From the NCBI RefSeq assembly GCF_003967355.1, contig NZ_BIFH01000016.1:1-64000 (forward strand): a stretch of DNA of 64,000 bases, given 5' to 3'. This DNA is from Embleya hyalina (GTDB lineage: Bacteria > Actinomycetota > Actinomycetes > Streptomycetales > Streptomycetaceae). This document shows, one piece after another, positions 18,815 to 32,812 of this stretch; position 1 is the stretch's first letter, and the number at the start of each line of letters is the position of its first letter. A program made the translations under genes and the position numbers. The notes beneath the pieces were generated by a model. The model worked only from the letters and a program-made list of their open reading frames with translations. It had not been told where the DNA came from and did not search any database.

Positions 18815-20110
18815 TCAGGATCCTCCCGGGTCGGTCAGGTGCAGCACGGCCGACACGCGCCAGCCGCCGCCGGGCAGTGGCCCGGCCGCCACATCGCCAC
18901 CGTAGACGGCGGCGCGCTCGCGCATGCCGGCGATGCCGCTGCCGGTGCCGGGGGTGGCGGTGGCGGTGGCGGTGGCGGTGGCGGTGGCGGTGGCGGTGGT
19001 AGTGGTGGCGGTGGTGCCGCCGGCGGCGCGGTCGCCGGCGAATGCGCGCGGGCGGCCGTCGTCGACCACGCTCAGTTCCAGGCGCTCGGGCGAACTCCAC
19101 ACCCGGATCCGGGCGTTCGCGCCGGGTTCGGCGTGCTTGAGGGTGTTGGTCAGGGCCTCCTGGGCGAGCCGGTACACCGCGAGTTGGGCGCCCTGCGGCA
19201 CCTCGCGGGTGTCGCCCTGGATGGTCAGCGTGGTCGGCAGGCCCGCCGCGCGGACCTGTTCGGCCAGCGCGCCGAGGCGGGCCAGGTCGGGCTGCGGGTG
19301 TCGGGCCGCGTCCGGTTCGTCCTCGCGCAGCACACCCAGGAAGCGGCGCATCTCGGTGAGCGCCTGCCGGCCCGTGCCGGAGACCTGCTCCATCGCCGTC
19401 GCGGATCGGTCGGGCGTGCTGCGTACGGTCATCGCGGCGGCGTCGGCGAGGGCGACCATCACCGACAGGTTGTGCGTGACGATGTCGTGCATCTCCCGGG
19501 CGATCCGGGCACGTTCGGCCGCGACGGCGAGTTGTGCCTGCTGTTCCTGGTCGCGTTCCAGGCGGTGGGCACGGTCCTCCAGGGCGGCCAGGTAGTGCCG
19601 TCGCGTGCGCAGGTTCGCACCGAGCACCACGGCCGTGACGGCCATCGCGCTCAGCCCGACGAACGCGCCGAAACGGTAGCCGTCCAGGGTCCAGCGCCCG
19701 ACGGCCAGCAGGATGCCGACCTCGACCACGGCCAGCGCGTACACCGTCCGGCGCCGGTCACGGGTGGCGGCCACCGTGTACAGCGCGATCAGCAGGCTCG
19801 CGTCCGCGCCGGTGTGCGCGTCGACGACCCACTGGGCCAGGGCCACGGTCGCGATCACCGCGAACACCGCCTCCGGGGCCCGGCGGCGCAGCGCGAGCGG
19901 CAGGATCAGGGCCAGCCCGAGCACCGACCAGCCGGACAGCCGCACCAGGTTGCCGGCCTCGAAGATGAGCACCAGGCCCACCGCCACGGCGGTGTCGGCC
20001 CAGATCGGATGCCTGCGGGTGAAGGCCATCAGGCGCGCCGGAACGGCGACGAGCCCACGCCCGCCGCCGTCCCGGCGCAGCGCCGTGTCGATGCGCCACG
20101 GCGTGCTCAT
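18815..20110 (-). CDS. Sensor histidine kinase (HisKA_3, NarX/DesK-type) with TA-repeat in the ATP lid
   Basis: A 431-residue membrane kinase. Residues 35-165 hold about five to six hydrophobic segments (short-loop, intramembrane-sensing type). Autophosphorylation His208 is in AREMHDIVTHNLSVMV. The HATPase domain includes LAQEALTNTLKHA (N-box) and GSGIAGMRERA (G2). Between the G1-like DDG and G2 lies a run of alternating Thr and Ala encoded by a GCCACC hexanucleotide tract (18953-19014). Its ATG overlaps the permease stop. Together with the ABC genes it resembles peptide-sensing detoxification modules. Confidence 0.92.
   Translation of the reverse strand: MSTPWRIDTALRRDGGGRGLVAVPARLMAFTRRHPIWADTAVAVGLVLIFEAGNLVRLSGWSVLGLALILPLALRRRAPEAVFAVIATVALAQWVVDAHTGADASLLIALYTVAATRDRRRTVYALAVVEVGILLAVGRWTLDGYRFGAFVGLSAMAVTAVVLGANLRTRRHYLAALEDRAHRLERDQEQQAQLAVAAERARIAREMHDIVTHNLSVMVALADAAAMTVRSTPDRSATAMEQVSGTGRQALTEMRRFLGVLREDEPDAARHPQPDLARLGALAEQVRAAGLPTTLTIQGDTREVPQGAQLAVYRLAQEALTNTLKHAEPGANARIRVWSSPERLELSVVDDGRPRAFAGDRAAGGTTATTTTATATATATATATATPGTGSGIAGMRERAAVYGGDVAAGPLPGGGWRVSAVLHLTDPGGS
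18953..19014 (-). repeat. GGTGGC hexanucleotide microsatellite inside the kinase gene
   Basis: About ten near-perfect GGTGGC units on the plus strand (GCCACC in coding sense) encode alternating Ala-Thr. Because the unit is six bases, copy-number change lengthens or shortens the ATP-lid loop without shifting the frame. Confidence 0.85.
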
Positions 20111-20949
20111 GCGTCGCGCCTGCGCAGCAACACCGCCGCCGCCGCGAGGGTCGCCGCGGCGTAGAGCGCGAAGACCGTGATCCCCGTGTTCGGGGACAGC
20201 GCGTCGGCCGACGGATGCCAGCGGGTGAACGCCTGTCCGGCCTCGCTGGGCAGGTATCTGGTGATGTGGTCCTGCCACGCGGTCGGCAGGGCCTGCACCA
20301 CCTGGGGCAGGACGAGCAGCAGGCCGAACACGATCGCGATGCCACCGGCGGCGTTGCGCACGACGGCGCCGACGCCGATCGCCAGGATGCCGGTGATCGC
20401 GAGGTAGAGGGCCACGCCGACCACCACGCGGGGCACGCCCGGGTCGCCCAGTGCGACGTCGATGTGCTCCTTGCTCAACACCGCCTGCCCGGCCAGGAAC
20501 GCGATCAGGGAGGTGACCAGCATCAGTACGAAGGTGACCGCACCGAAGACCGCGGCCTTGGCCCACAACACGGGCAGGCGGTGCGGCACCGCGGACATCG
20601 TGGCCCGGATCGACCCGGTGGCGTACTCCCCGGTGATCACCAGCACGCCGAGTACGCCGATGGCCAACTGGGCGAGGTAGAGGCCGGTCAGGCTGGCGTT
20701 GGGCGCGGAGAACCGCGCGCGCTCGGCGGCACCGGTGTCCGGCCAGCGGTCGACCGTGCCGGAGGTGACCAGCAGGCCGAGCGCGATCACCACGAAGACC
20801 GCGGCGACCAGGACCCAGAACGTCGAGCGCAGGCTGCGCAGTTTGATCCATTCGGCGCGAAGCACGCGGACGAAGGTGACCCGCCCGCGCCCGGCGGCGC
20901 GGGCGGCGAAGTCGGGGGCGGGGGTGCCGGGGGTGATCGTGGTCGACAT
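20107..20949 (-). CDS. ABC transporter permease (ABC-2 type)
   Basis: A 280-residue permease with six hydrophobic segments. It starts with a cytoplasmic RAEWIKLRSLRSTFWVLVAAVF segment typical of ABC-2 permeases of the bacitracin/lantibiotic export class, then a large first extracytoplasmic loop (residues about 65-90), then ITGEYATGSIRATMSAVPHR, a hallmark loop of this family. The start shares one base with the ATPase stop (TGATG), and its stop overlaps the kinase start. It is the membrane half of the exporter encoded with the ATPase upstream. Confidence 0.92.
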   Translation of the reverse strand: MSTTITPGTPAPDFAARAAGRGRVTFVRVLRAEWIKLRSLRSTFWVLVAAVFVVIALGLLVTSGTVDRWPDTGAAERARFSAPNASLTGLYLAQLAIGVLGVLVITGEYATGSIRATMSAVPHRLPVLWAKAAVFGAVTFVLMLVTSLIAFLAGQAVLSKEHIDVALGDPGVPRVVVGVALYLAITGILAIGVGAVVRNAAGGIAIVFGLLLVLPQVVQALPTAWQDHITRYLPSEAGQAFTRWHPSADALSPNTGITVFALYAAATLAAAAVLLRRRDA

Positions 20950-21941
20950 CAGGCGGCCCTGCCCCGGGTGCGCGGGCCGGTGCGCGGGCGGGTGTTCGGG
21001 CCGGTGCCCGCACTCGTGGCGCCGGTGCCGACCGACGGACCGCCCACCCGATACTCGACCGCGTCGCGCGTCGACTCCATGAACGCCTCCTCCAGGGACA
21101 CCCGATGCGGGACCAGTTCGAACAGGGTGATGCCGTGCGCCGCCGCGATCCGGCCGATGTCGTCGCTGGAGACCCCGCTGACCTCCAATACGTCGCGCTC
21201 CTCCGTCGCGATCCGCACCTCGGGGCCGAACAGCAGCGCCCGCAGCCGGTCGGCGTCGGGGGTGCGGACCCGGACCTGGTCGGGCGCGGCGCCGGCGATG
21301 AAGTCCGCGACCGACGTGTCGGCGATCAACCGGCCCCGACCGACCACGATCAGGTGCTCGGCGGTGAGCGCCATCTCGCTCATCAGGTGCGAGGACAGAA
21401 AGACGGTACGTCCCTCGGCGGCGAGCGACTTGAGCAGGGTACGGATCCACAACACGCCCTCGGGGTCGAGGCCGTTGACCGGTTCGTCCAGGACCAGCGT
21501 CGCGGGGTCGCCCAGCAGTGCGGTGGCGATGCCGAGCCGCTGGCCCATGCCGAGCGAGAAGCCGCCGACCCGCTTGCGGGCCACCTCGTCCAGGCCGACC
21601 ATCCGGATCACCTGGTGCACCCGGCGCGTGGGGATGCCGGTGGTGGCGGCCATGGACAGCAGGTGGTGGTACGCCGAGCGGCCGGTGTGTACCGCCTTCG
21701 CCTCCAGGAGCGCGCCGACCTCGTGCAGCGGGGCCGGATGGTCGGCGTAGCGGCGGCCGTTGACGGTGACCGAGCCGGAGGTGGGGCGGTCCAGGCCCAG
21801 GATCATCCGCATGGTGGTGGACTTGCCGGCGCCGTTGGGACCCAGGAAGCCGGTGACCACGCCGGGACGGACGGTGAAGCTCAACCCCTCCACGGCGGTC
21901 TTGGGACCGTAGCGTTTGGTCAGTGCTTCGGCTGTGATCAT
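20949..21941 (-). CDS. ABC transporter ATP-binding protein (DrrA/BcrA type)
   Basis: A 330-residue ATPase. Walker A GPNGAGKST (about residues 36-44), signature FSLGMGQRLGIA (LSGGQ variant), Walker B TLVLDEPVNGLDPEG and H-loop FLSSHLMSEM are intact. A DUF4162-like C-terminal domain and a basic Pro/Arg/Thr-rich tail follow. It is the first gene of a four- or five-gene overlapping operon: ATPase, permease, histidine kinase, response regulator, then possibly the DUF6191-like gene. A GGAGATCC ribosome site precedes the ATG. Confidence 0.93.
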   Translation of the reverse strand: MITAEALTKRYGPKTAVEGLSFTVRPGVVTGFLGPNGAGKSTTMRMILGLDRPTSGSVTVNGRRYADHPAPLHEVGALLEAKAVHTGRSAYHHLLSMAATTGIPTRRVHQVIRMVGLDEVARKRVGGFSLGMGQRLGIATALLGDPATLVLDEPVNGLDPEGVLWIRTLLKSLAAEGRTVFLSSHLMSEMALTAEHLIVVGRGRLIADTSVADFIAGAAPDQVRVRTPDADRLRALLFGPEVRIATEERDVLEVSGVSSDDIGRIAAAHGITLFELVPHRVSLEEAFMESTRDAVEYRVGGPSVGTGATSAGTGPNTRPRTGPRTRGRAA

Positions 21942-22208: not shown

Positions 22209-22892
22209 CTACTCCGGTCGCGTCCGCGTGCGCCGCAGGGCGAGTGCGGCCTCGGGTGGTTGCCACCTCGGGTCGAGGTCGGCGATGGTGACGAAGGTGT
22301 CCATGAGCAGCATCACCAGCAGGTGGTGCACCTCCTCGCGGGTCGACTCCCCGCGGGCCAGCCAGTCCAGGGTGACCCCCTCGACGCAGTACAGCCAACC
22401 CACCAGCGCGGCGCGGGCGATCGGCGACAGGTCGACGCGGCCGTAGGCACCGTCGGCGAGCGAGCCGAGCATCTCCTCGCGGACCCGTTCGCGGATGGTG
22501 AGCACGTCGGTGTCGAAGCCGACGCCGCCGCTGACCACGGTGCGGTAGGCGGCCTCGTTGCCCTGGGCGAAGCGCAGATAGCCGTCCAGCACCTTGCGCA
22601 GCCGGTCGGCCGCGGGTTGGTCGGCGTCGCTGCGGGCACGGGCGACCAGGTCGGCGACCGAGTCCTCGATCACCGCGACGTAGTAGCCGCGCTTGTTCCG
22701 GAAGTAGTAGTAGAGCAGGCCCTTGGCCACGTTGGCCCGGGTCGCGATCTCGTCCACGGACAGCGCGTCGTAGGAGGTGTTCGCGAACAACTGGCGCCCG
22801 ATGGCCACGAGTTCGGCGCGACGGGCCTGCGAGCGCTCGGAGTCGGGCGGGGTCCGGCGACCCTCCGTGCGGGATCGTTGACTCTTGTTCAA
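22209..22892 (-). CDS. TetR/AcrR-family regulator
   Basis: A 227-residue repressor when started at TTG 22892. The N-terminal HTH reads RRAELVAIGRQLFANTSYDALSVDEIATRANVAKGLLYYYFRNKRGYYVAVIED, a classic TetR domain (residues about 25-75), followed by a helical ligand-binding domain. No Met codon precedes the HTH closely. The other option is GTG 22985, which adds 31 residues. Both start codons fall inside a TTGACT...TTCAA operator copy, so the repressor would control its own translation start region and the divergent operon. Confidence 0.85.
   Translation of the reverse strand: MNKSQRSRTEGRRTPPDSERSQARRAELVAIGRQLFANTSYDALSVDEIATRANVAKGLLYYYFRNKRGYYVAVIEDSVADLVARARSDADQPAADRLRKVLDGYLRFAQGNEAAYRTVVSGGVGFDTDVLTIRERVREEMLGSLADGAYGRVDLSPIARAALVGWLYCVEGVTLDWLARGESTREEVHHLLVMLLMDTFVTIADLDPRWQPPEAALALRRTRTRPE
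22878..22892. promoter_or_regulatory. Putative TetR operator, copy 1
   Basis: TTGACTCTTGTTCAA is an imperfect palindrome (TTGA...TCAA) matching the second copy at 22968 at 13 of 15 positions. It overlaps the likely TTG start codon of the TetR gene. Confidence 0.6.
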
Positions 22893-22967
22893 ATCGGGGC
22901 CTGGTTTCGGTCGCGGCGACGGCGGCGGGTACGCGCAGAGTATCGAAACCGGCGGGCGTTCGAAGTA

Positions 22968-22982
22968 TTGACTTTTATTCAA
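22968..22982. promoter_or_regulatory. Putative TetR operator, copy 2, overlapping the operon -35
   Basis: TTGACTTTTATTCAA repeats copy 1, 90 bp away. Its first six bases TTGACT double as a -35 hexamer for the divergent operon, so a bound repressor would occlude RNA polymerase. Confidence 0.65.
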
Positions 22983-22995
22983 CACTCCCTACTGT
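22968..22995 (+). promoter_or_regulatory. Sigma-70-type promoter of the PF10118-ephD-like operon
   Basis: The -35 TTGACT (22968-22973) and -10 TACTGT (22990-22995) are separated by 16 bp. It lies 60 bp upstream of the first gene at 23055 in one of the most AT-rich patches of the region. Confidence 0.6.
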
Positions 22996-23054
22996 GAGGT
23001 AACAAGACAGGTGACCAGAGAGGCAGCAAGAGTTCCCCACGAAGGAGCACCGTC

Positions 23055-24017
23055 ATGTCCTCGGCTCCCCCCGACACACCGCTCCCCCGCCGCGACCGCC
23101 TCGACCGTCGCTCGACCCGAACCCCCGCCAGGGGTCCCGCCGTTCGCGCCGACGAGCACCACGACCTCGCGCTCAACCCGCGAGACGTGCGGTTCGACTG
23201 GTCACGTCTGCCGATGCACTGGGTTCCGCGGGAGCCGATGGCCACGCACACGATGAACGTGCTGCACCTGCTGCTCCCCGAGGGCGAGCGCTGGTTCGTG
23301 CGCACCTTCCGGGAGGCGTTGCCGCTGGTCACCGACGAGCTGCTGCGCGAGGACGTGATCGGCTTCATCGGCCAGGAGTCCGTACACGCCGAGGCCCACC
23401 AGGGGGTGCTCGACCTGCTGCTCGCCAAGGGCCTGGATCCCGCGCCGTTCGTGCGCCAGGTCGAATGGCTCTTCCACCGCGTGCTCGCCGGCCGGGACGA
23501 CCTCGGCGGCCCGGCCGGCCGCGAGCACCTGATCGAGCGGGTCGCGATCATCGCCGCGATCGAGCACTTCACCGCGTTCCTCGGCGACTGGGTGCTCAAC
23601 GCACCCGGCCTGGACCGGGCCGGGGTCGACCCGGTGATGCTGGACCTGCTCCGCTGGCACGGCGCCGAGGAGGTGGAACACCGCAGTGTGGCCTACGACT
23701 TGCTGGTCCACCTCGACCCGAGCTATCTGCGCCGGATGCGCACGATGGCGGTCACCGGACCCGTGCTCACCTGGCTGTGGGTGCGCGGTGTGCGCTTCCT
23801 GATGCTGACCGACCCCGACCTCGATGGCCGGGCCCGACCCACGTGGCGCGGGTACATACAGGCGTCACGGCGTGGGTTGTTGCCGGGGCTGACCGGTGCG
23901 GCCCGTTCCGCCGCGCGGTACGTGAAACCGCGCTATCACCCGACCCAGGAGGGCTCGACCGGGCAGGCCGTGGCGTATCTGGCCCGATCTCCGGCGGCGC
24001 GGGCGGCTGCGCGGTGA
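23055..24017 (+). CDS. PF10118 'metal-dependent hydrolase', putative diiron protein
   Basis: A 320-residue protein of the PF10118 family. Helical blocks carry paired carboxylate/His motifs expected of a ferritin-like dimetal site: FIGQESVHAEAH (about residues 107-118), IAAIEHFTAFLGDW and RWHGAEEVEHRSVAYDLL. The EExEH pattern is typical. Despite the database name, such motifs are equally consistent with a diiron oxygenase. It is the first gene of an operon with a flavin/2Fe-2S reductase that could be its electron donor. The ATG at 23055 follows GAAGGAGCACC. Confidence 0.85.
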   Translation: MSSAPPDTPLPRRDRLDRRSTRTPARGPAVRADEHHDLALNPRDVRFDWSRLPMHWVPREPMATHTMNVLHLLLPEGERWFVRTFREALPLVTDELLREDVIGFIGQESVHAEAHQGVLDLLLAKGLDPAPFVRQVEWLFHRVLAGRDDLGGPAGREHLIERVAIIAAIEHFTAFLGDWVLNAPGLDRAGVDPVMLDLLRWHGAEEVEHRSVAYDLLVHLDPSYLRRMRTMAVTGPVLTWLWVRGVRFLMLTDPDLDGRARPTWRGYIQASRRGLLPGLTGAARSAARYVKPRYHPTQEGSTGQAVAYLARSPAARAAAR

Positions 24018-24120
24018 GGGGTGGCGGTCGCCGGCTGCGTGCCGCGGCGATCGGCGACCGCATCGCCGTATTCGCTGCGATACCGATTCGATCCGGATAT
24101 CGAGGATGCCGAGGATGCCG

Positions 24121-25254
24121 ATGAGCCCGTCCATACCGCCGAACTCCGCGCCGTCGGAGCCGATCACCGTGCCGCCGGACCTGTACGGGCGCGAGCGCGG
24201 CGACCGGATGATGCGAGCGCTGACCGTCCTCGGCCGCGTCCACACCGAGGCGATCGCCCGTCGCGGCCGGCGCCCGGCCCGGGTGGGTGCGCCGAACACC
24301 GCCGCCGTGCGTCCCGACGCGCTGGAACTGGTGGTGCGTGAACGGGTCGTCGAGGCCGAGGACGTGGTCTCCCTGCGGCTGACCGCGCCGGCCGGCGGCC
24401 GACTGCCCCGCTGGCAGCCGGGTGCCCACCTGCTCCTGCTGCTGCCGTCCGGACGCCGCAGGCACTACTCGCTGTGCGGCGACCCCGAGGACCGCTACAC
24501 CTATCGGATCGCCGTGCGCCGACTGGCCGAGGGCGGCGGCGGATCGATCGAGATGCACGACGCGTTGCCGGTGGGCGCCACGCTGCGAACCGCCGGGCCG
24601 CGCAACGCGTTTCCGTTCGCCGCCGAACCCGCCGTGTTGTTCCTGGCCGGCGGCATCGGCATCACTCCGATCCTGCCGATGGCGCGTCGGGCCGCCCGGG
24701 TCGGATCGGACTGGCGGCTGATCCATCTCGGCCGGACCCGCGACTCGCTGCCGTTCGGCGCCGAACTGGCGGAACTGGGCGGCGCCGAACGGCGGTTCGA
24801 GGTGCGTGCGGACGACGAGGAGGGCACGCCCGACTGCGCCGAACTGCTCGGCCGCGCGCCCGCAGGGGCGGCGGTGTACTGCTGCGGGCCGGCTCCGATG
24901 CTGGCCGCCGTACGCGAGGCCGTCGAGGCAAGTCCGGCCGGGGGGCTGCACTTCGAGCGATTCGCGCCGGCGCCCGTGGTCGACGGCCACCCGTTCACCC
25001 TCCACCTGCGGCGCGGCGGCGTCGAACTGCCGATACCGGCCGACCGGTCGGCGCTCGACGTGCTGCGCGAGGCCGCGCCCGACACCGCCTACTCCTGCCG
25101 GCAGGGCTTTTGCGGAGTGTGTCGGGTCAACGTGGTGGCCGGCACCGTACAACACCGCGATCTGCGCCTGACCGACGACGAACGCGCGGCCGGCGCGATG
25201 CTGATCTGCGTCTCCCGCGCCGCCGAGGGCGAGCGCCTGGTCCTCGACCTGTGA
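24121..25254 (+). CDS. PDR/VanB-type oxidoreductase (flavin-NAD(P)H-2Fe-2S reductase)
   Basis: A 377-residue reductase with three modules. The flavin domain has HYSLCGDP (RxYS variant). The NAD(P) domain has FLAGGIGITPILPM and YCCGPAPML. The C-terminal plant-type ferredoxin has CRQGFCGVCRVNV and a later LICVSRA supplying the fourth Cys. This is the phthalate dioxygenase reductase layout, feeding electrons to an oxygenase. The start was set at the third of three closely spaced ATGs (24106, 24115, 24121), as GAGG lies six bases before it. About 100 bp separate it from the PF10118 gene. Confidence 0.92.
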   Translation: MSPSIPPNSAPSEPITVPPDLYGRERGDRMMRALTVLGRVHTEAIARRGRRPARVGAPNTAAVRPDALELVVRERVVEAEDVVSLRLTAPAGGRLPRWQPGAHLLLLLPSGRRRHYSLCGDPEDRYTYRIAVRRLAEGGGGSIEMHDALPVGATLRTAGPRNAFPFAAEPAVLFLAGGIGITPILPMARRAARVGSDWRLIHLGRTRDSLPFGAELAELGGAERRFEVRADDEEGTPDCAELLGRAPAGAAVYCCGPAPMLAAVREAVEASPAGGLHFERFAPAPVVDGHPFTLHLRRGGVELPIPADRSALDVLREAAPDTAYSCRQGFCGVCRVNVVAGTVQHRDLRLTDDERAAGAMLICVSRAAEGERLVLDL

Positions 25255-25307
25255 CCCGCACGATCTCCCGTTCCCAAAGGCGGCGTTCTCCCCTCTCGAA
25301 GGCGGCG

Positions 25308-26186
25308 ATGATGAGCACACGGCTACAAATCACGACGGTGCGCGCGCCCGGGGGCATGCCGGCGTTCCGGTACGACGAGGACGACCTGGATCGATTCCGC
25401 GACGTGCAGCGGTTGGCGTATCGGTGCGCAGAGCGGGTCGCGGCCTGGATCGAACCGGGCGTCACCGAGCGACAGACCGCCGCGCGCCTGGGGCGGGAGT
25501 TGGCGGCGGAGGGCGTCCGGGACTGCTTCCACATCCCGTTCGTGTGGTTCGGCGACCGCACCGCGTTCCGCGACTTCCGCACCCCGCTGCAGTTCTTCCC
25601 GAGCGGTCGGGTCCTGACCGAGGGCATGCCGTACGTGCTGGACTGCGCACCGATCGTGGACGGGTACACCGGCGACATCGGCTACGCGGGCAAGGTCGGC
25701 GAAAACCCGGTCTGGGACCGGGTCGTGGCCGATCTCGGCGCCTACCGCGAGCTGATCGTCGCCGAGGTACGCCGGCGCAGGCCGCTGGACGACGTGTATC
25801 GGGCGGTCGACGCACTGACCGTCGCGCACGGCTACGACAACCGGCATCAGGTTTATCCGGGGCGGGTGATCGCCCATCAGGTCACTCGGGTCACCCTGCG
25901 CCGGCCGATCGGGGTGAACGTACTCGGCTTCGGTGTGCGCACGATTCGCACCCTCGGCCGGGAGCTGATCGCCGAGCGGCTGCACGGGCGTTCGCCGCTG
26001 TGGGCGGACGGTCGGGCCTCGCGGCATGCGCCGACCCCGGGTCTGTGGGCGGTGGAACCGCACATCGCGCTGCGCGCGGTGGGCGCCAAATTCGAGGAGT
26101 TGCTGGTGGTCACCGACGACGACGCGTACTGGCTGGACGACGACGTGCCGCACGTTCGGCGGTTGCGCGAGGTGGGGTCGCGATGA
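25308..26186 (+). CDS. M24-family metallopeptidase-like protein
   Basis: A 292-residue pita-bread-fold protein. All five canonical metal ligands seem present: two Asp eleven residues apart in VLDCAPIVDGYTGDIG, a His in GRVIAHQVT, a Glu in WAVEPHI and a Glu in AKFEELLVVTDD. An insertion of about 50 residues lies between the His and first Glu (containing FGVRTIRTLGRELIAERL). Family members are aminopeptidases, prolidases or creatinases, but some lack peptidase activity. Its place between a redox pair and an EphD-like fusion is unusual. Two consecutive ATGs follow GAAGGCG; the stop overlaps the next start. Confidence 0.82.
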   Translation: MMSTRLQITTVRAPGGMPAFRYDEDDLDRFRDVQRLAYRCAERVAAWIEPGVTERQTAARLGRELAAEGVRDCFHIPFVWFGDRTAFRDFRTPLQFFPSGRVLTEGMPYVLDCAPIVDGYTGDIGYAGKVGENPVWDRVVADLGAYRELIVAEVRRRRPLDDVYRAVDALTVAHGYDNRHQVYPGRVIAHQVTRVTLRRPIGVNVLGFGVRTIRTLGRELIAERLHGRSPLWADGRASRHAPTPGLWAVEPHIALRAVGAKFEELLVVTDDDAYWLDDDVPHVRRLREVGSR

Positions 26187-28045
26187 CGGCGGGGGCCTCC
26201 GAAGGAGTCGTGAACGAAGGTGTCGGGGAGGCGGTCGGGGAGCCGGTCGGGGGAGTCGGCGAAATCGGGGAGACCGGGGAGAGCGGCGTCGTGCGGGCTC
26301 GGACCGTGGTGTCCGGCGGGGTCCGGCTCGCGGTGTACGAACAGGGGCCGGTGGAGGGCCCGTTGGTGCTGCTGGTGCACGGCTACCCGGACACACACCA
26401 CGTGTGGGACGACGTCGCCGCCGATCTGGCGCGGGACCACCGGGTGGTGCGCTACGACGTGCGCGGCGCGGGCGCGTCGGGGGCGCCCGGGAGTCGATAC
26501 GGCTATCGGCTGGAGCAGTTGGCCGCCGACCTGTTCGCCGTGCTGGACGCGGTGAGCCCGGATCGGCCGGCGCATCTGCTCGCCCACGACTGGGGTTCGA
26601 TCCAGGCGTGGGAGGCGGTCACCGACCGGGCCGGGCCGCGCCGGATCGCCTCGTACACCTCGATCTCCGGGCCGTGCCTGGACCACGTCGGACACTGGGC
26701 CCGGCGCCGACTGGCCCGGCCCACGCCCCGGCATCTGGGCCAACTCGCGGCCCAGTCGGCGCGTTCCTGGTATATCGCGGCGTTCCACCTGCCGATGCTC
26801 GCGCCCGCGGCCTGGCGGTCGGGGCTGGCGGCGCGTTGGGGCGGGCTGTTGGCTCGGGCCGAGGGGGTATGGCCGCGCGCGGGCCATCCGCAGGCCACGC
26901 TCGCCGACGACGCGGTGCGCGGTATCGCGCTGTACCGGGCCAACATGCTGCCCCGGATGCTGCTTCCGGGGCGGCGCGAGACGACCGTGCCGGTGCAGTT
27001 GATCACCCTCGCCGACGATCCGTATGTCGGTGCGGCGCTGTCCGAGGACCTGGACCGCTGGGTGCCCCGGTTGTGGCGGCGCACGGTCGCGGCCGGCCAC
27101 TGGTCGGCCCTGCTGGAGAAAGGCCCGACCGTGGCCCGGATGACCCGCGAATTCGCCGCCCACATCGACCACGGCACCACGACGCCCGACCTCGACGCGG
27201 CCCGACACCACGAACGGCCGCCGAGAAAGGACCCGTTCGCGGGTCGGCTCGCCCTGATCACCGGCGCGGGCGGCGGAATCGGCCGCGCCACGGCGGTCGC
27301 GTTCGCCGAACAGGGCGCCGACATCGTGGTGTGCGACGTCGACTCGGCCGGGGCCGAACGCACCGCCGAACTGGCCCGCCTGTACGGCCGCTCGGCACAC
27401 GTGTACCGCGTCGACGTGTCCGACGGCGCGGCCATGGACACCTTCGCGGCCAAGGTCGCGGCCGCACACGGCGTCCCGGACATCGTGGTCAACAACGCGG
27501 GCGTCGGCCACTACGGCACATTCCTGGCCACCACCGACGCCGAGTGGAAGCGGGTGTTGGACGTCAACCTGTGGGGCGTCATCCACGGCTGCCGGGCCTT
27601 CGGCACACTGTTGGCCGAACGGGGCGAGGGCGGCCACATCGTCAACATCGCGTCGGCGGCGGCATACACCCCGTCCAAACTGCTGGCGGCCTACGCGACC
27701 ACCAAGGCGGCGGTGTCCATGCTGTCGGACTGCCTCCGCGCCGAACTGGCCGGATCCGGCGTGCGGGTGACCACGATCCACCCGGGCATCGTCAACACCG
27801 GAATCACCCGCAGCACGACCTTCTCCGGAATGAGCGATACCGACCAGGCCGCACACCGAGAACGAGCATCCAGACTCTACGCCCGACGCAACTACCCCCC
27901 GGAAAAGGTGGCGGACCAAATCGTACGAGCAATCCGCCGCCACCATGCGGTAGCACCAATAACCCCGGAGGCCCGAACAGCCTGGTGGCTGAGCCGCCTA
28001 TCCCCGACAACAATGCGCTTCCTGGCCCGCACAGGCACCCCCTGA
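26183..28045 (+). CDS. EphD-like alpha/beta hydrolase-short-chain dehydrogenase fusion
   Basis: A 620-residue bifunctional protein. After a Gly/Glu-rich linker-like N-terminus (to about residue 38), the alpha/beta hydrolase domain has oxyanion segment LLVHGYPDTHHVWDD and nucleophile motif AHDWGS, where Asp replaces Ser as in epoxide hydrolases and dehalogenases. The SDR domain starts near residue 355 with TGAGGGIG, then NNAG, and catalytic YATTK. This order matches mycobacterial EphD (Rv2214c), an enzyme tied to epoxy-mycolate metabolism. Coupled by ATGA overlap to the M24 gene. Substrate here is unknown; streptomycetes lack mycolates. Confidence 0.88.
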   Translation: MTAGASEGVVNEGVGEAVGEPVGGVGEIGETGESGVVRARTVVSGGVRLAVYEQGPVEGPLVLLVHGYPDTHHVWDDVAADLARDHRVVRYDVRGAGASGAPGSRYGYRLEQLAADLFAVLDAVSPDRPAHLLAHDWGSIQAWEAVTDRAGPRRIASYTSISGPCLDHVGHWARRRLARPTPRHLGQLAAQSARSWYIAAFHLPMLAPAAWRSGLAARWGGLLARAEGVWPRAGHPQATLADDAVRGIALYRANMLPRMLLPGRRETTVPVQLITLADDPYVGAALSEDLDRWVPRLWRRTVAAGHWSALLEKGPTVARMTREFAAHIDHGTTTPDLDAARHHERPPRKDPFAGRLALITGAGGGIGRATAVAFAEQGADIVVCDVDSAGAERTAELARLYGRSAHVYRVDVSDGAAMDTFAAKVAAAHGVPDIVVNNAGVGHYGTFLATTDAEWKRVLDVNLWGVIHGCRAFGTLLAERGEGGHIVNIASAAAYTPSKLLAAYATTKAAVSMLSDCLRAELAGSGVRVTTIHPGIVNTGITRSTTFSGMSDTDQAAHRERASRLYARRNYPPEKVADQIVRAIRRHHAVAPITPEARTAWWLSRLSPTTMRFLARTGTP

Positions 28046-30781: not shown

Positions 30782-31765
30782 ATGGGGTTCTCCACCCTCA
30801 AGGGCCGCAACCTGCTCTCGCTCCTGGACGTGAACGCCGCAGAGATCGGCGAGTTGCTGGATCGGGCCGGGGATCTGAAGGAGCGGGCCGCGTGCGGGGA
30901 GCGAGTGCCGGTGCTCGCGGGGCGCAATATCGCGTTGATCTTTCTCAAGCCCTCGTGCCGCACCCGGGTCTCGTTCGTCGTCGCGGCGACGCAGTCCGGT
31001 GCGCATCCGGAGTTCTTCGGTCGCGAGGACATCCGATTCGGGATCAAGGAGTCCGTGCGCGATATCGCCCAGGTGTTCGGGCGGGTCTTCGACGGGGTGA
31101 TGTTCCGCGGCTTCGAGCATACGACCATCGCCGAGTTCGCCGCGCACGCGGGGGTGCCGGTGTGGAACGGGCTGTGCGACACCTACCATCCGACCCAGGT
31201 GCTCGCCGACCTGCTCACGCTGCGGGAGAACTTCGGCGAACTCCACGGCCTGCCCGTCACGTACGTCGGCGACGGCCGCAACAACGTGGCCCGCACCCTG
31301 GCCGTCGCCGCCGTCAAGCTCGGCCTCGACCTGCGCGTCCTGGCCCCGGAGCCGCTGCACCCGGACCCCGCGTCGATCGCCGAGCTGCTCGCCGGGGCCG
31401 AGTCGTCGCGGGCCGCGATCACCGTCACCGCGTCGCCGGCGGAGGCGCTGGCCGGGTCGGCCGCGGTGTACGGCGACGTGTGGGTGTCCATGGGCGAGGA
31501 GGAGCAGACCGACCGTCGCATCGAGCTGCTGCGCGACCTGAAGGTCACGCCCGAGCTGATGGCCCGCACCGGCCGCACCGACACCGTCTACCTGCACTGC
31601 CTGCCCGCGTTCCACGACCTGGAGACCGAGACCGCGCGGGCCCGTCCCGACCTCCGCGAGGTGGCGGACGAGGTCTTCGAGGGCCCGCGCAGCCGGGTGT
31701 TCGACCAGTCGGAGAACCGCATGCACACCGCCAAGGCCCTGATGCAACTCACCATCGCGGGCTGA
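30782..31765 (+). CDS. argF: Ornithine carbamoyltransferase
   Basis: A 327-residue cytosolic enzyme making citrulline from ornithine and carbamoyl phosphate. The carbamoyl-phosphate-binding STRT motif appears here as SCRTRVSF (about residues 58-65). DTYHPTQVLADLLT (HPxQ) follows, then the ornithine loop SMGEEEQ and the catalytic HCLPA. SCRTR instead of STRTR is a notable variant of the carbamoyl-phosphate loop, seen in some OTCs. It stands alone, away from other arg genes, and follows ARG-box-like sequences. The ATG at 30782 aligns with the usual start (FSTLKGRNLLSLLD). Confidence 0.93.
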   Translation: MGFSTLKGRNLLSLLDVNAAEIGELLDRAGDLKERAACGERVPVLAGRNIALIFLKPSCRTRVSFVVAATQSGAHPEFFGREDIRFGIKESVRDIAQVFGRVFDGVMFRGFEHTTIAEFAAHAGVPVWNGLCDTYHPTQVLADLLTLRENFGELHGLPVTYVGDGRNNVARTLAVAAVKLGLDLRVLAPEPLHPDPASIAELLAGAESSRAAITVTASPAEALAGSAAVYGDVWVSMGEEEQTDRRIELLRDLKVTPELMARTGRTDTVYLHCLPAFHDLETETARARPDLREVADEVFEGPRSRVFDQSENRMHTAKALMQLTIAG

Positions 31766-31960: not shown

Positions 31961-32812
31961 TCAGATCCGCTGCCACAGGGCCGGCACGTTCGGCGGCTCC
32001 CATCCCGACAGTGCCGTGTGCCCTTGCAGGCAGCGGTAGTTCTGGCCGCCATAGGACACCGTGGCCCCGGCGGCGTAGTTGGTGCCCGCCCGCCAGCTGC
32101 CGCCCGGCGGGTTCGTCGGCGGCTCGCTCGTGGGCGGCTCGCTCGTCGGCGGCTGGCTCGTCGGCGGGACGCCGGCGATGTTGAGCACGAAGTCGAAGGT
32201 CGCCTCCTTGCCGCCGTTGCCGTTGCGCACGTTCATCAACAGCCGCGCGTCGAAGATCGTGTCGGTGTTGTTGCGCGGCTCGCCCGGGAAGTAGGTCTGC
32301 GTGGTCAGGATCCCGCGGTTGGGCGCCTGGACCTTCATGTGCAGGTGCCGGGTACGGCCCGGGTACAGACCCGGTACCACCGTGGTCAGCGAGTACGCGC
32401 CCTGCGCGTTGGTGAACTGGTGGCCGCGGAAGGTGTATCCGACGTTGTCGTACTCGCCGTTGGTGTCCGCCTGCCAGAAGTCGAGCAGCACGTTGGCCAG
32501 TGGCTGACACGCGCGGTTGAACACGAAGCCGGACACCGTCAGCGGCGTGCCGGCGCCGGTGAGTACCGACCGCAGCGGGGAGTTGGGCTTGAAGTACGGT
32601 CCTTCGGTCTGGTCGATGGTGGGCGCGTCGCCGTCGTGGCAGAACGGCGTCGGGGCCAACGGCCCGCCACTGTTGCGCTGCGCCCGGGCCAGCGCGGGCA
32701 CGCCGCCGATCAGCAGCGGCAGCGGAGCGGCGATCAGCGCCGCCTTGAGCAGATTCTTTCGGGTGATGCCGCGCGCGGCGGGCTCGTCCTGATCGGTGAT
32801 CTCGGGGTCCAT
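31961..32812 (-). CDS. Secreted intradiol dioxygenase with C-terminal CBM5/12
   Basis: A 283-residue exported enzyme. A Tat-like signal (TRKNLLKAALIAAPLPLLIGG; RK in place of RR) ends near residue 44. The intradiol ring-cleavage domain shows all four Fe(III) ligands: Tyr in EGPYFKPN, Tyr near YPGRTR, and two His in RHLHMKV. A Pro/Thr/Ser linker (PPTSQPPTSEPPTSEPP) leads to a CBM5/12 module (WRAGTNYAAGATVSYGG ... GHTALSGWEPP). The architecture matches Streptomyces sp. SirexAA-E SACTE_2871, an extracellular dioxygenase implicated in attack on lignin-derived catechols at polymer surfaces. It neighbours chitinases and an LPMO. Confidence 0.92.
   Translation of the reverse strand: MDPEITDQDEPAARGITRKNLLKAALIAAPLPLLIGGVPALARAQRNSGGPLAPTPFCHDGDAPTIDQTEGPYFKPNSPLRSVLTGAGTPLTVSGFVFNRACQPLANVLLDFWQADTNGEYDNVGYTFRGHQFTNAQGAYSLTTVVPGLYPGRTRHLHMKVQAPNRGILTTQTYFPGEPRNNTDTIFDARLLMNVRNGNGGKEATFDFVLNIAGVPPTSQPPTSEPPTSEPPTNPPGGSWRAGTNYAAGATVSYGGQNYRCLQGHTALSGWEPPNVPALWQRI

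Follow-up and report, generated by a model that had tools for sequence, protein, structure and literature searches.

A PF10118 protein, a PDR-type reductase, an M24 protein and an EphD-type fusion as a candidate oxidative gene set in Embleya

The Embleya locus and its encoded proteins

We analysed a stretch of 64,000 nucleotides (the window) from contig C16 of a 12.05-Mb genome of Embleya, a genus other than Streptomyces within the Streptomycetaceae. The subject of this work is a group of five genes in the window, in which a gene for a TetR-family regulator is oriented divergently from a row of four genes that code for a PF10118 protein, a reductase of the phthalate dioxygenase reductase (PDR) type, a protein of the M24 (pita-bread) family, and an EphD-type fusion of an epoxide hydrolase (EH) with a short-chain dehydrogenase/reductase (SDR). 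The places and families given to these genes by the initial annotation were confirmed by their domain scores, which are listed below with the corresponding cut-offs.

22209..22892, minus strand: TetR-family regulator (TetR_N, 48.6 bits, cut-off 24; TetR_C_46, 32.8 bits, cut-off 27)
23055..24017, plus strand: PF10118 protein, proposed diiron oxygenase (PF10118, 252.5 bits, cut-off 33.2)
24106..25254, plus strand: PDR-type flavin/NAD(P)H/2Fe-2S reductase (Fer2, 52.3 bits, cut-off 21; NAD_binding_1, 24.8 bits, cut-off 22)
25311..26186, plus strand: M24 (pita-bread family) protein (M24, 67.4 bits, cut-off 23)
26183..28045, plus strand: EphD-type alpha/beta epoxide hydrolase fused to an SDR (NF004514, 817.6 bits, cut-off 455)

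The M24 and EphD-type reading frames overlap in ATGA, and intergenic gaps of 88 bp and 56 bp lie between the PF10118 and reductase genes and between the reductase and M24 genes, respectively. Among the genes identified in the operon there was no CoA ligase, thiolase or other gene for further breakdown, no coupling protein or second hydroxylase subunit, and no Baeyer-Villiger monooxygenase (BVMO).

The title of PF10118 (Metal_hydrol) in Pfam is 'Predicted metal-dependent hydrolase', and at least 568 encoded relatives of the family were found; the named records closest to the window protein are two from Embleya, with 92.1% and 89.6% identity. As metal ligands we propose E78, E108xxH111, E170 and H202xxxE206xxH209. 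In an alignment of the window protein with 79 relatives, from which one of the 80 loci surveyed below was omitted as its frame contains stops, E78, E108, H111, H115, E170, H171, H202, E205, E206 and H209 were invariant, and in a set of 88 relatives that took in plasmid copies, all 88 kept the same residues, down to an identity of 29% in Acinetobacter. A confident structure model (pLDDT 86.9, pTM 0.83) places the proposed ligands on four long helices (residues 61-91, 95-124, 152-181 and 193-220), that is, in a four-helix bundle with the E, ExxH, E, ExxH pattern by which ferritin-like dimetal oxygenases are recognised. Foldseek returned 378 matches to this model at E values up to 10; the 50 listed, identified by their titles, include ribonucleotide reductase (RNR) R2, R2-like ligand-binding oxidases (R2lox), CmlI, VlmB and AurF, as well as methane monooxygenase (MMO) hydroxylase and aldehyde-deformylating oxidase. 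Invariant ExxH and HxxEExxH motifs, as in PF10118, were also found in an alignment of the AurF family from the window genome and related genomes. When PF10118 members were scanned singly against Pfam, 17 of 80 showed a weak match to Ferritin_2 (best E 0.023) and seven a weak match to AurF (PF11583; best E 0.0048); the window protein itself matched neither at E up to 1, and as a single sequence it had no match among PDB sequences at E up to 1. Because of the invariant ligands, the helical model, the Foldseek titles and the motif in common with the AurF family, the PF10118 protein is very probably, as predicted from the outset, a ferritin-like dimetal protein.

By sequence, the PDB entry closest to the reductase is 6laa, a P450-fused reductase domain (2.8e-65); 2pia, phthalate dioxygenase reductase, is also close (1.5e-58). 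Although the FAD_binding_6 match stayed at 20.2 bits, just under the cut-off of 21.1, the domain order, the RxYS motif and the four cluster cysteines are those of a PDR-type enzyme. RxYS was kept in 81 of 82 reductase loci, as were the first three 2Fe-2S cysteines, and the fourth cysteine in 78, the remainder lying outside the alignment coverage. A candidate N-terminal motif shared by the reductases was dropped, the loose pattern having matched 20 of the 82.

In the EphD-type protein, the NF004514 match covers both domains (residues 40-617), and the best-scoring solved proteins for the first domain are epoxide hydrolases. The nucleophile D, both lid Y and the catalytic H were present in 42 of 42 EphD-type loci, and N/S/Y/K of the SDR domain in 27 of 27; the roles of these residues are presumed from established motifs. 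The M24 protein likewise holds all of its putative metal ligands (D111, D122, H189, E249 and E262), which recur in 20 of 20 covering sequences (the window included and one short fragment omitted) down to 49% identity in Burkholderia; the M24 protein had been described as intact. Matches of the M24 protein to solved M24 proteins were weak (best E 0.0014) and none of the NCBIfam models fitted it at E up to 0.001; the family name 'Peptidase M24' is uninformative on the reaction of this protein.

Recurrence of the gene set in genomes and plasmids

Genes within 4.5 kb of PF10118 were surveyed, with score thresholds, in the loci of 80 named PF10118 relatives. The reductase was near in 79 loci, being the next matched gene in 77 and standing behind the EphD fusion in two; the last locus is cut by a contig end. 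An EH was found in 38 loci, a TetR in 38, an SDR in 25, M24 in 15 and a gene resembling flavin-containing monooxygenases or BVMOs (FMO/BVMO-like) in 10, the latter label being based on PF00743 (61.1 bits) together with a match to a model of Baeyer-Villiger enzymes that stayed under its cut-off. At the same thresholds, EH, reductase, M24, FMO/BVMO and SDR all gave zero matches in the outer flanks (553 kb, vs 679 kb inside), where weaker SDR and reductase matches of 28-37% identity, below the thresholds, do occur at some loci. Sixteen gene orders were distinguished, ten of them with an EH; PF10118-reductase-TetR alone was the commonest arrangement (28 loci), and in two loci the putative epoxidase, EH, SDR and BVMO are together (order BVMO PF EH SDR FNR). 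Membership of the module is steady while the order of its blocks changes. The co-occurrence in other genomes by which the initial annotation was to be checked was strong, and its choice of the PDR reductase as partner of PF10118 was upheld.

In a second survey we examined 121 genomes of the family to which the window belongs, counting EphD fusions above the curated cut-off only. PF10118 was present in 93 genomes, M24 in 74 and the EphD fusion in 102. PF10118 and M24 start no more than 6 kb apart in 64 of 74 genomes; for PF10118 and the EphD fusion this is true of 75 of the 87 genomes that contain both, and for M24 and EphD of 71 of 73. In 61 genomes all three are together. M24 was detected (E up to 1e-20) in 74 of the 93 genomes with PF10118 and in none of the 28 without it. 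The same pattern was observed inside a single genus (g9), with M24 in 15 of 15 genomes that have PF10118 and in 0 of 12 that do not, the two genes being unlinked in nine of the 15; Fisher values for this co-occurrence overstate the case because the genomes are related. A class-wide sample of 158 genomes had PF10118 in 26, the EphD fusion in 23 and M24 in six, all six with PF10118.

The set is also carried on plasmids and recurs beyond the Actinomycetota. A mobilizable Dietzia plasmid carries M24, an EphD-type SDR fusion, PF10118, a PDR/VanB oxidoreductase and a TetR in a row, with domains checked, and Burkholderia cenocepacia has the order M24-EphD-PF10118; in three other Burkholderia records the spacing between M24 and PF10118 is likewise 1.9 to 2.0 kb. 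On a Rhodococcus fascians plasmid, TetR-PF10118-PDR is followed, in the place of EphD, by a protein of the LEH family (PF07858, 7.6e-15; also SnoaL_2, 8.4e-7), whose epoxide hydrolases are not related to those of the alpha/beta type. Two Mycobacterium loci (L041 and L077) show BVMO-like, PF10118, EphD and reductase genes in a row. Because the neighbours recur in the 80 relatives, the 121 genomes, the plasmids and Burkholderia, the gene set is not a chance grouping.

Other surroundings of PF10118 were recorded in passing. In six loci of Rhodococcus and relatives (L040, L043, L059, L066, L074 and L078) the PF10118-reductase pair lies among dnaN, 6-phosphogluconate dehydrogenase, RecF-like and gyrB genes, as identified by checking one member of each of four gene clusters. 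A remoter PF10118 branch of about 33% identity (L120, L122, L154 and L156) stands beside an FMO/BVMO-like gene, without a reductase. On two Acinetobacter plasmids, remote PF10118 genes (L090 7995-8864 and L091 7962-8888) are near genes for PaaI-type thioesterases, and in L091 an alpha/beta hydrolase is also near.

Candidate TetR sites

The statement that the four genes lie under one TetR holds at the window, and a TetR within 4.5 kb of PF10118 is, as given above, a recurrent feature. The TetRs of these other loci are mostly remote kin of the window protein (25-30% identity), encoded downstream in most loci and divergently in three. TetR_N is common to the window TetR, to c3-type Streptomyces TetRs and to the divergent TetRs of L005, L006 and L016, with TetR_C_46 of varying strength. 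The start of the window TetR is uncertain: a TTG at 22892 is one option, and the listed open reading frame (ORF), which begins at 22985, extends too far upstream. Read from LNKSQ/LNQSQ, the protein is 88-96% identical in four of four other Embleya loci.

The 15-mer TTGACTYTTRTTCAA has two matches in the window with up to one mismatch, and none in 100 shuffles. We consider them as candidate operators.

22878..22892: copy 1 of the putative TetR operator, TTGACTCTTGTTCAA, located where the TetR gene starts
22968..22982: copy 2 of the putative TetR operator, TTGACTTTTATTCAA, located 72 bp ahead of the start of PF10118

Copy 2 overlaps a -35-like TTGACT (a promoter reading made by eye) and is identical in five of five Embleya loci, window included; a copy at the position of copy 1 is also present in the four other loci. 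The distance between the two sites is 90, 323, 925 or 943 bp among the Embleya loci, and in L159 and L161 a DUF6114-like piece is found between TetR and PF10118. The window genome contains one further copy of the 15 bp (C40:131380; L162 7881-7895), about 210 bp upstream of the following pair.

L162 8107-9882: DUF6230-DUF6114 pair, window genome

In one congener (G002) a near copy precedes the DUF6230 gene by the same distance (region L163 4049-5942), a second one (G001) has only the two copies of the 15-bp site at its PF10118 locus, and in a third (G003) neither a PF10118 match nor the 15-bp site was found. From their sequence distribution, these candidate sites may define a small TetR regulon, and the divergent TetR probably acts at the two sites of the locus as a repressor of both promoters.

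Elsewhere in the window, a minus-strand gene (31961-32812) codes for an intradiol-type dioxygenase domain fused to CBM_5_12, a minus-strand ORF (18815-21013) combines DUF7134, HisKA_3 and HATPase_c domains with a stretch in which A and T residues alternate, and ORF 30892-31765 has no known family in the reading frame given.

A proposed oxidative route, its alternatives and related systems

We estimate at roughly one in two the probability that the operon encodes a short oxidative route, consisting of an oxygenase with its reductase, epoxide opening and dehydrogenation, with the M24 protein tied in. There is a sound basis for the set of oxygenase, reductase, epoxide hydrolase and dehydrogenase. 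The reductase would transfer electrons from NAD(P)H via its flavin and 2Fe-2S centres to the PF10118 protein, which, as an oxygenase with a diiron or other dimetal site, would insert a single atom from O2 into a hydrophobic compound, the product being most likely an epoxide on a C=C bond. The N-terminal EphD-type domain, judging by homology and its intact residues, would open the epoxide to a diol, and the fused SDR domain would then convert this diol by oxidation into a hydroxyketone; in relatives with an FMO/BVMO-like gene, an ester or lactone could be formed from the hydroxyketone. The M24 protein is assigned to the route because of its genome distribution, in keeping with its place in the system as initially annotated, and this metalloenzyme probably acts on a substrate or product of the second and third steps. 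The replacement of EphD by an LEH-family protein on the Rhodococcus plasmid is the best single argument for an epoxide-making oxygenase; it falls short of proof because that protein also matches SnoaL_2, a fold with other activities.

The chain of oxygenation, epoxide opening and dehydrogenation put forward in the initial annotation keeps the support of the four-function set and of the LEH protein in the EphD slot, whereas its acyl substrate found none. A lipid is possible because, according to parts of PMC7998700, mycobacterial EphD opens 9,10-epoxystearate and affects epoxymycolates. The suggested link to mycobacterial EphD metabolism was not supported, and neither was PF10118-EphD as an explanation of mycobacterial epoxymycolates: PF10118 is not adjacent to the EphD fusion in the five sampled genomes of genus g24, presumed to be mycobacterial, although the Mycobacterium loci L041 and L077 do have the two side by side. 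Mycolic acids are not expected in Embleya. The data presented here do not separate a lipid from a terpenoid: the lipid is a guess, and a terpenoid fits equally well. On a wider scale we suggest, tentatively and at somewhat less than even odds, that the near subfamily of PF10118 comprises unrecognised two-component diiron epoxidases, in an exchangeable and plasmid-borne oxidative module with EphD or LEH hydrolases, SDR, FMO/BVMO-like and M24 partners that is common to Actinomycetota and Burkholderia.

Several results weigh against the oxidative route. The best Foldseek match of the PF10118 model has an E value of 0.012 (probability 1.00), so that no match falls under 1e-3, and the TM-scores range from about 0.3 to 0.5; VIA-align gave Z 14.9 with RNR R2 (4.2 A over 247 residues), close to values that, by the tool's documentation, unrelated helical models can attain. 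The PF10118 profile had no match among PDB sequences up to E 10, and the hhalign comparison of PF10118 with AurF was not significant (probability 0.33%, E 0.18), the motifs being in register, which we do not take as support, so that in the searches run the link to known diiron oxygenases was never significant at the sequence level. The AlphaFold2 model of the M24 protein was poor (mean pLDDT 64) and was left unused. As regards the neighbourhoods, an EH within 4.5 kb is missing, at the threshold used, from 42 of the 80 loci, both flanks being covered in 66 of the 80; outside the family of the window, PF10118 and EphD are close in four of the 11 genomes of the class-wide sample with both; in genus g9 the EphD fusion is kept in 10 of the 12 genomes that lack PF10118; and the reductase was not matched in 18.8 kb of Burkholderia cenocepacia. 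Finally, in 40 further regions chosen from the family and class-wide surveys, with copies ranked by identity to the best of four queries, the reductase was near in 20 of 24 copies with at least 45% identity and in 0 of 17 remoter copies, four of which adjoin an FMO/BVMO-like gene. The pairing with the reductase is, because of this difference, a trait of one large PF10118 branch.

The same chemistry could serve an imported alicyclic alkene, whether terpenoid, steroid-like or of another kind, instead of a cellular acyl lipid, in a manner resembling limonene breakdown; we regard this as a real contender that is nevertheless rather doubtful. The partner set of EH or LEH, SDR and FMO/BVMO-like enzymes matches the limonene route of Rhodococcus erythropolis DCL14, given in part of PMC4097962 as epoxidation, epoxide hydrolysis, diol oxidation and a BVMO step, and carriage on the Dietzia and Rhodococcus plasmids would suit a catabolic module. 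However, the operon has none of the genes for further breakdown named above, PF10118 in 93 of 121 family genomes is much for a specialised catabolic trait, and the activity reported for mycobacterial EphD in parts of PMC7998700 is on fatty and mycolic epoxides. It is unlikely that the locus unites two historical neighbours, a PF10118-reductase-TetR module and an M24-EphD pair for epoxide detoxification. Such an origin would accord with the commonest arrangement among the 80 loci, with EphD fusions in genomes that lack PF10118 and with M24 away from PF10118 in 10 of 74 genomes, but it does not account for the absence of M24 from every PF10118-less genome, its tracking of PF10118 in genus g9 even where unlinked, the constant membership under varying order, or the LEH protein that fills the EphD place.

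Two further alternatives concern the reaction of PF10118 itself. It is improbable that the protein works as AurF, CmlI and VlmB do, as an N-oxygenase whose amine substrate the M24 protein frees from a peptide or amide. Cleavage of C-N bonds is typical of M24 enzymes, CmlI, VlmB and AurF are among the Foldseek matches listed, and both the invariant ExxH and HxxEExxH and the weak Pfam AurF matches in seven members point in that direction; against this, C-oxygenases use the same helical ligand pattern too, the hhalign score lacks significance, and amine oxidation offers no evident role for the epoxide hydrolase, SDR and FMO/BVMO-like partners. That PF10118 is a true metal-dependent hydrolase or protease, the reductase belonging elsewhere, is what the Pfam title implies, and a correlation study, the one found to name PF10118, took a PF10118 group as a candidate lanthipeptide protease (PMC8960859). 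The portions of that study bearing on this point give correlation and co-expression, not a test of the PF10118 protein. With a helical bundle carrying the ferritin-like dimetal pattern and a reductase near in all but one of 80 loci, we find the hydrolase alternative highly improbable.

We found nothing on this gene system in the open-access literature searched. If the oxidative route is correct, a widespread 'hydrolase' family would become an oxygenase family whose electron donor is already named, and the study in PMC8960859, in the parts that count PF10118 among proteases, would need rereading on that point. EphD-type epoxide hydrolases would gain a plausible source of epoxide, and an orphan M24 clade would be tied to an oxidative route by a clean pattern of presence and absence.

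Among known systems, the M24 protein shares all five metal ligands and the Pfam M24 domain with the pita-bread methionine aminopeptidases, but differs from them in its weak matches to solved members and in fitting none of the NCBIfam models. The PF10118 protein resembles AurF, CmlI and VlmB (PF11583) in its predicted helical fold and invariant motifs; it differs in that the PF11583 model does not recognise it and the profile comparison gave no significant link, and its near subfamily has a PDR reductase as partner and frequently epoxide hydrolases as well. As in diiron monooxygenases of the MMO type, whose hydroxylase is among the Foldseek matches listed, a helical diiron-type protein adjoins an NAD(P)H/flavin/2Fe-2S reductase, whereas the window operon has a single small oxygenase gene and no identified coupling protein or second hydroxylase subunit. 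The EphD-type protein of the window, which scores above the NF004514 cut-off, is the same two-domain fusion as mycobacterial EphD (Rv2214c, MSMEG_4280) but has other neighbours. The limonene-route oxygenase of strain DCL14 reportedly belongs to another family than PF10118, and that route also differs in that most PF10118 loci have a hydrolase of the alpha/beta type and the window operon is without a BVMO; the order of steps proposed here is nevertheless the same, and on the Rhodococcus plasmid an LEH-family protein stands beside PF10118.

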